DNA from: Prochlorococcus sp. AG-363-J23
GTDB taxonomy: Bacteria > Cyanobacteriota > Cyanobacteriia > PCC-6307 > Cyanobiaceae
Reading direction: 5' to 3'
Length of the DNA stretch: 64,000 bases
Assembly: GCA_003280245.1 (NCBI GenBank)
Contig: QCFN01000002.1
Location: 38,399-102,398, forward strand
A program made the position numbers and the translations under genes. Below the pieces are notes generated by a model. It searched no databases and was not told the origin of the DNA. It worked only from the letters and a program-made list of their open reading frames with translations. Positions 40,466 through 42,244 of this stretch are shown piece by piece (the stretch's first letter is position 1; each line of letters begins with the position of its first letter).

Positions 40466-41590
40466 TTAGAAGATCGAATAATTCAGCCACCTGCATTCAA
40501 TGCCACCGTTATTGATGGGTATTTTTCGACGGCATTTCATTCGAAGAGCTTTAGTTAAAGAGGGATTCCCGCTCAGAATCCAGAAGTCCCATCCTGATCC
40601 ATTTTCTTTTAGAAAATTACCTAATTCTTCATATAAATCGACTAGGTTTTCCTCTCTCCCAACTCGCTTTCCATATGGAGGATTGCAAACTATTACGCCA
40701 GGAGGGCTAGGAAGTTTTAGATCGGAGAAGTGACATTTTCGTATAACTATGTTTTTATCGAGACCTGCGGATTTGATATTAATTTGTGCATTTTGAAAGA
40801 CAATTTTATCTTGTTCTGTTCCTATTATTTTTGGCATCTTCTTTCCCCACTTCTCATTATTAATGGCAATTTGTTTTTCTTTTTCCCAGAGAAATTTATT
40901 AAAATCGAACCACTTTTTTAGAGTAAAATCTTTATTTAAGCCAGGCGCTAAATCTAATGATTGGCTTGCAGCTTCAAGAAGAAAAGTTCCAGAACCGCAT
41001 AATGGATCTACTAGATTTTGATGATTTTCCCATCCACTTAAGCGAATTAAACCTGCTGCTAGATTCTCTTTTAATGGAGCTTTCCCTATGGCTGCTTTAT
41101 AACCTCTTCTATGAAGACTTGTATGCGTACCATCTAGACTTAAGGTTGCATGATTGTTTGAAAGGTGAAGATGTAAGCACAGGTCTGGCTCTTTAACATC
41201 AATGCTTGATCTTTGCCCCCAAAGCTCTCGTTGAATGTCAACAATTGCATTTTTTACTTGTAAAGCAGTGTAGTGGCTGTGATTGAGTTTGATTTGGCTT
41301 CCTGAGACGTCAACACGGAAGCTCATGTTTGGCGTGAGCCAGTCACTCCATTGAAAACATTTCTGTATGCCTTTGTACAAAGAGTTAGGAGAATTACATG
41401 GGAAGGTTCCGATCTCTCTGAGTAGGCGAAATGGAAGTCGAGCGTGAAGGTGCAATCTATATAAACAGGCCATATCAGCTTGAAAAGATGCGCACCTTTT
41501 CAAAGGACTTACTTCTTCAGCTCCTAGAGTGGCAAGCTCTGCTGAACCTTCTTTTTCTAGACCTTGAGGAAGTACAGCTATACCGCGCAT
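40466..41590 (-). CDS. THUMP-domain class I SAM-dependent RNA (RlmL-type) methyltransferase
   Basis: N-terminal GLEKEGSAELATLGAEEV, LVDPLCGSGTFLLEAA, PPGVIVCNPPYGKRVG. Confidence 0.9.
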   Translation of the reverse strand: MRGIAVLPQGLEKEGSAELATLGAEEVSPLKRCASFQADMACLYRLHLHARLPFRLLREIGTFPCNSPNSLYKGIQKCFQWSDWLTPNMSFRVDVSGSQIKLNHSHYTALQVKNAIVDIQRELWGQRSSIDVKEPDLCLHLHLSNNHATLSLDGTHTSLHRRGYKAAIGKAPLKENLAAGLIRLSGWENHQNLVDPLCGSGTFLLEAASQSLDLAPGLNKDFTLKKWFDFNKFLWEKEKQIAINNEKWGKKMPKIIGTEQDKIVFQNAQINIKSAGLDKNIVIRKCHFSDLKLPSPPGVIVCNPPYGKRVGREENLVDLYEELGNFLKENGSGWDFWILSGNPSLTKALRMKCRRKIPINNGGIECRWLNYSIF

Positions 41591-41689
41591 GTTTTTAGCA
41601 ATATTTGACTAAGAGAATGTTTTTCTCATGTTTTGCTTGAAAGCTTAGTGTGCATACTTTTGCCAATTCTGACAGAATTAAGAAGTTCA

Positions 41690-42050
41690 TTTTCGGATGA
41701 ACTAGGTGATCCACACCAGTGACTCGGACAGCGGTTCGATTCCGCTCAGCTCCATTTCATCAATCTAGGGGCTGCAATGGTTTCGACGGGTTATGAGGAG
41801 GGTGACTGAAGCCTGCTCGGTAAGAGCAAAAACGTAACAGCGAACAAAATCGTTCGTTTCTCCCGTCAGGCCGCCCCTGTTGCTGCTTGACCCATTAAGG
41901 GAGATGGGGTGAAGTCAGCCTTATCACCCAAATGACTCATGGGGACTGGAAGGTCCCCTCTTTTACTACAAGGGAATGAGTTTTAAATTCCTAGCGACAG
42001 CATAGTTATTGGTTTAGGGCAAAATTTCGTTGACTCAACCTGGACTATGG
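41690..42050 (+). ncRNA. ssrA: Circularly permuted two-piece tmRNA precursor (ends approximate)
   Basis: Acceptor piece with T-arm and CCA end (gcggttcgattccgctcagctcca, ending 41754) precedes a short intervening segment (41755-41767) and the coding piece starting ggggctgcaatggtttcgacggg (41768). Tag ORF 41840-41890 reads ANKIVRFSRQAAPVAA*. Confidence 0.93.
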
Positions 42051-42076
42051 AAAAGCGAGCAGCGAATTTTGCCCTA
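42015..42076. repeat. Inverted repeat at the 3' end of the ssrA region
   Basis: tagggcaaaatttcg (42015-42029) and cgaattttgcccta (42063-42076) are complementary except for one extra T; loop about 33 nt. Confidence 0.8.
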
Positions 42077-42244
42077 GTTCCACAAGCCATCGAGCCTGAT
42101 TACTTCATGACAGTTTCCAGTTCGTTTTGGGTTGATCATGAGCTGTTTCTTGACTTTGTACTAGCGGAATCGAAACAATCAAATCTCAAGTCAAGCTGGT
42201 TGACGTTGGAAAATCAGAGCTCAATAGGCTCATCAATTGAATAG

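Follow-up and report, generated by a model that had tools for sequence, protein, structure and literature searches.

The tmRNA of the picocyanobacteria was reportedly described as a two-piece molecule by Gaudin et al. in 2002. The same tmRNA was seen as two separate molecules on Northern blots from Prochlorococcus in 2005 (PMC1242208), and permuted tmRNA precursors are cut by tRNA-processing enzymes (PMC11915505). Permuted genes that place the acceptor part first and yield two pieces are also represented by the Rfam families RF01849 and RF01850 of the alpha- and betaproteobacteria, which are separate lineages. An earlier note on the DNA examined here had correctly assigned permuted tmRNAs to the alphaproteobacteria and the marine picocyanobacteria, and had omitted the betaproteobacteria, the third such lineage (PMC11915505). 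Two-piece tmRNAs are also carried by marine phages, with 53 among 18,146 genomes in one survey (PMC9004378). In addition, tmRNA genes are the most enriched target of genomic islands (PMC4383910).

The window analysed for the current report, a stretch of 64,000 nt from a Prochlorococcus draft genome, contains one gene of this kind, and all of the coordinates given below for its parts refer to the + strand of the window. ARAGORN called a permuted tmRNA at 41665-41981, and the RF01851 (cyano_tmRNA) model matched 41669-41957 over its full length (model positions 1-288) with 309 bits and an E value of 1.2e-89, a score that exceeds the gathering score of 70 bits. A further match, to RF04321 (tmRNA_permuted), covered 41705-41890 (142 bits, E 6e-28), and RF01849 and RF01850 were not among the reported matches. 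Chance is excluded as the source of the window tmRNA by the two covariance-model scores together with the permuted call of ARAGORN. The earlier note, which had proposed a circularly permuted two-piece tmRNA and searches of exactly this kind, is thereby borne out as to the form of the gene, and the two mature ends that it implied would follow from the relatives. Its remark that tracks based on open reading frames miss the gene is true yet trivial, and standard RNA finders detect ssrA. We are nearly certain that the gene is ssrA and encodes the circularly permuted two-piece tmRNA usual for picocyanobacteria, with a precursor that is processed to two pieces and a product that acts in SmpB-dependent tagging. 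It resembles other members of RF01851 in its full-length match, the order of its pieces, its stems, the type of its tag (ANKIV/ANNIV...APVAA) and the lack of an encoded CCA, and differs from them in nothing essential, its tag variant (K3, R6, A11) and 13-nt spacer being inside the range of the family. The window gene is therefore an ordinary representative of a kind already known, and the main outcome is a clear confirmation.

Within the gene, the T arm and the 3' strand of the acceptor stem (41730-41754) precede a spacer at 41755-41767, which is followed by the 5' strand of the acceptor stem at 41768-41774. Both GGTTCGATTCC and CAGCTCC-A terminate at 41754, the 13-nt segment TTTCATCAATCTA comes next and GGGGCTGCAATGGTTTCGACGGG starts at 41768, so that the landmarks named earlier for the joint (discriminator A at 41754, a 13-nt spacer at 41755-41767 and a coding piece from G41768) are exact. 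The predicted mature acceptor (tRNA-like 3') piece occupies 41685-41754 by its RF01851 alignment and its relatives, with a 5' end that we infer from the promoter and a 3' end placed by homology at the discriminator A. The predicted mature coding piece occupies 41768-41958, its 5' end being placed by homology with RF01851 and its 3' end at the terminator hairpin. That hairpin, GGGGACTGGAAGGTCCCC, lies at 41941-41958 and is followed by TCTTTT, which puts the 3' limit of the gene near 41964 and not at 42050, as had been supposed; the segment at 42008-42154 is not part of the tmRNA, and is treated below.

By their pattern of conservation, the first columns of RF01851 (window 41670-41678, TGACAGAAT) seem not to belong to the RNA but to be an extended -10 promoter element. 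The first hairpin could be placed in 71 relatives, and in 70 of these TGNNANNNT is found at a fixed 7-nt offset upstream of the hairpin; the T, G, A and T of this motif are invariant, the typical sequence is TGNCAGAAT, and the neighbouring columns drift and are weakly conserved. The informative part of this evidence is the fixed distance, because the TGNNANNNT pattern itself was required in the search for relatives. A second alignment (A1, 38 diverse sequences), which was assembled with no such requirement, also shows no variation in these T, G, A and T columns. Transcription is likely to start about 7 nt past the -10 element, at G41685, the first base of the first hairpin (41685-41702), which would then form the 5' end of the acceptor piece.

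When the 67 pairs of the RF01851 structure were mapped onto alignment A1, 91.4% of the cells were paired, as compared with 32-51% when the partners were slid by 1-3 columns. Eighteen pairs had changed on both sides, against 10.0 in shuffled alignments, and none of 500 shuffles reached as high. Changes on both sides affected 5/7 pairs of helix 1, the first hairpin (96.5% of cells paired), and 5/6 pairs of helix 9, the terminator hairpin at 41941-41964 with its TCTTTT (100% paired), while the T arm (41730-41746) is invariant in the 38 sequences. The acceptor stem across the permutation joint (41747-41774, in which 41747-41753 pair with 41768-41774 and the third pair is G-U) is 100% paired in the same sequences and co-varies, being GGGGCTG/CAGCTCC in 77 and GGGGTTG/CAACTCC in 68 of 146 sequences, with one G-U intermediate. 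The stems that span the joint are thus kept by paired changes. One helix of the Rfam drawing, helix 7 (41866-41891, in the tag region), lacks support from the 38 sequences: it is 49.5% paired among them and is poorly formed in the window as well as in its relatives.

The intervening segment ranges from 5 to 33 nt in the relatives, with little conservation of its sequence, and longer spacers may also exist because the search pattern allowed only ~3-33 nt. The suggestion that the shortness of the window's 13 nt is special was rejected, since this length falls within that range. A short spacer might be tolerable as a loop, and one could imagine that the expressed gene stays a single uncut RNA in which the 13 nt simply loop out of the acceptor stem. 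We consider this very improbable: such an RNA would have an acceptor end without a free 3' CCA, making alanine charging impossible, the tmRNA of Prochlorococcus runs as two molecules on Northern blots (PMC1242208), and the spacers drift freely in both sequence and length, as expected for sequence that is discarded.

Processing to two pieces remains our preferred reading. At the acceptor end, a CCA tail is encoded in none of the 146 distinct sequences that were compared, and in the window TTT directly follows A41754. The claim that a T-arm/CCA part ends at 41754 was right as to position and mistaken as to the CCA, the CC at 41752-41753 belonging to the acceptor stem and A41754 being the discriminator. 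A third acceptor pair G-U together with a discriminator A is the identity set for alanine, and both features (G41770-U41751 and A41754) are the same across the 146 sequences. The tag frame at 41840-41890 reads GCG AAC AAA ATC GTT CGT TTC TCC CGT CAG GCC GCC CCT GTT GCT GCT TGA and encodes ANKIVRFSRQAAPVAA, as had been read earlier and as both the sequence and ARAGORN confirm; it begins with Ala and closes with a hydrophobic degron and a stop. The commonest tags of the relatives are ANKIVSFSRQTAPVAA (73) and ANNIVRFSRQAAPVAA (45), and the window tag is a mixture of these two variants.

The gene is the sole match to RF01851 in its own genome (a draft of 1.31 Mb in 55 contigs, 69% complete). A second or standard tmRNA was considered and rejected, there being no match over the cut-off in this 69%-complete draft; the weak matches to RF00023 are mostly the size of tRNAs, and one lies on the acceptor part of ssrA itself. 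As partner genes, the genome has smpB (G000:C3:71086-71508, 181 bits to SmpB), RNase P RNA and RNase Z. These partners, like the form, structure and covariation of the gene, are direct observations of this analysis. Across the family, RF01851 was found in 337 of 400 genomes, and in 240 of the 251 that are at least 90% complete. The closest sequenced relative found (G043) belongs to the same genus, and its tmRNA region aligns in exactly the same way as that of Prochlorococcus sp. AG-363-O16. The gene that precedes ssrA (40466-41590, minus strand) encodes an RNA methyltransferase of the RlmL/THUMP type and adjoins ssrA in G043 too.

From what is established for its relatives we infer, for the window tmRNA, the exact RNA ends, the processing enzymes, and the charging, tagging and degradation that would follow. 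By homology with permuted precursors that are cut by tRNA-processing enzymes (PMC11915505), a single precursor would run from the promoter at about 41670 to the hairpin at 41941-41958, and its 13-nt spacer would be excised by enzymes of that class. RNase P would generate the 5' end of the coding piece, and a 3' endonuclease such as RNase Z would generate the end of the acceptor piece, to which CCA would then be added. The two pieces would be held together by the acceptor stem and by the long stem formed between 41705-41726 and 41787-41807. With SmpB, the tmRNA would enter stalled ribosomes and be read as mRNA, so that ANKIVRFSRQAAPVAA would be added to the stalled peptide, which would be released; the tag would mark the protein for proteolysis.

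Relatives of the window tmRNA were searched for among plasmids, where none was found, and among phages. A blastn search with the window region matched the cyanophages S-SSM7, S-SSM6a and Sf-FS3. The three phage loci that were scored match RF01851 with 109-159 bits, and searches for the cyano-type permuted tmRNA found 16 phage records and 45 IMG/VR contigs. The two-piece tmRNAs of marine phages (PMC9004378; S-SSM7, S-CAM1, S-CAM3, Sf-FS3 and the IMG/VR contigs) have the same cyano-type permuted layout. The phage copies differ in having spacers of 5-6 nt and in the last residues of the tag, which are often not AA. Among 45 complete phage tags, which come from mutually related contigs and are not independent counts, 21 have the ending VAA and 24 have VAV, ATA, ATV or VTA; all 149 of the complete host tags have the AA ending. 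Some of the cyanophage tags are also longer, up to 24 aa. In S-SSM7, the permuted tmRNA gene is overlapped by SSSM7_025 (2482-2700), which is annotated as a 'hypothetical protein' and was probably called as a gene in error. We found no discussion of the tag ends of the phage two-piece tmRNAs in the available text of PMC9004378, and the phrase 'phage-encoded tmRNA' returned nothing from the literature on phage tmRNA tags, which is weak evidence of absence.

The sequence that follows ssrA has a history of its own. Five relatives from different genera share 50-75% identity over most of the DNA that precedes ssrA and 75-98% over the tmRNA. From the terminator hairpin on, the identity rises to essentially 100% and stays there over 1.5 kb or more in four of the five, and over 0.8 kb in the fifth, where the compared sequence ends. 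In three of the five, this homology runs on for ~15 kb at 98-99.7%. In G043 the shared DNA is an island of ~19 kb (G043:C1:98800-118700) with cargo of the arsenic/phosphate type, which is 98-100% identical across genera in G043 and its near relatives. Its genes include those for ArsR, a GAPDH-type protein, an MFS transporter, a chromate transporter and a phosphate-binding-type protein, as well as a response regulator, a Crp-type regulator, a porin and a primase-helicase-like ATPase. The island ends ~18.9 kb on, in a 63-nt copy of the 3' end of ssrA (86% identical), beside which lies a gene for a 399-aa integrase-like protein that has a weak match to the phrog_1 integrases (E 2e-4) and no Pfam match. 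Proteins 36-61% identical to this integrase are encoded ~7-14 kb from ssrA in five further genomes, single-contig or near-closed (G075, G120, G045, G185 and G161), and past the integrase each has a 36-54 nt copy resembling TATCACCCAAATGACTCATGGGGNNTGGAAGGNCCC. An integrase gene and a displaced copy of the ssrA 3' end are thus found together in all six. The matching segment of the window is 41922-41957, copies of this attachment core being present beyond the integrase in the six genomes and in three integrase contigs.

These sequence comparisons identify the 3' end of the ssrA coding piece as the site at which a family of integrase-bearing islands attaches in picocyanobacteria. Known counterparts are the tRNA/tmRNA islands of Islander (PMC4383910) and the tycheposons of Prochlorococcus (PMC10872708). 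The islands of the relatives, with their integrases, start in the 3' end of ssrA and finish in a copy of it. They differ from those counterparts in attaching at the 3' end of a permuted gene's coding piece, and not at a T-arm/acceptor end.

At the window ssrA there is no pairing of an integrase with a displaced 3' copy, as would mark an intact island, but only a decayed remnant: no integrase of the island type was found in the draft genome at E 1e-20, and no second copy of the ssrA 3' end in the 64,000-nt window. The remnant (42008-42154) is a piece, now diverged, of the gene that comes first in the relatives' island (62% identical over 50 aa to an 89-aa protein), having lost its 5' part and, relative to G043, ~250 nt before it. 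Two candidates nearby were rejected. A 12-nt inverted match to the T arm at 42163-42174, as an integration scar, is expected by chance (E 2.5). An inverted repeat at 42015-42026/42065-42076, as an RNA element, lies inside the island-gene remnant; as TAGGGCAAAATTTCG it is absent from the relatives compared, and no Rfam family matches there.

The islands of the relatives do leave 3' fragments of tmRNA behind, and remnants of one adjoin the window gene, so that one might ask if the latter is itself a pseudogene or a fragment displaced by an integrated island. We regard this as the least probable of the explanations considered, given that RF01851 is matched over its whole length (1-288) with 309 bits, whereas displaced fragments elsewhere span the 3' end only and score ~21-26 bits, that the functional stems pair, and that the gene is the only copy found in the 69%-complete draft. 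The window ssrA adds a further example of an RNA that is already well described; its surroundings are of greater interest.

It is possible, although we hold the view with more doubt than confidence, that the permuted tmRNA might be a shared target of mobile DNA, through the integration of islands in the 3' end of the coding piece and, separately, through the tmRNAs of cyanophages, about half of which carry tags changed at the residues read by proteases, such that rescued proteins might escape degradation or be rerouted in it during infection. The altered ends of the cyanophage tags raise a testable question, namely whether phages alter what becomes of rescued proteins. The presence of a group of related integrases at the 3' end of the permuted gene's coding piece suggests that integration into tmRNA genes is independent of the T-arm end.
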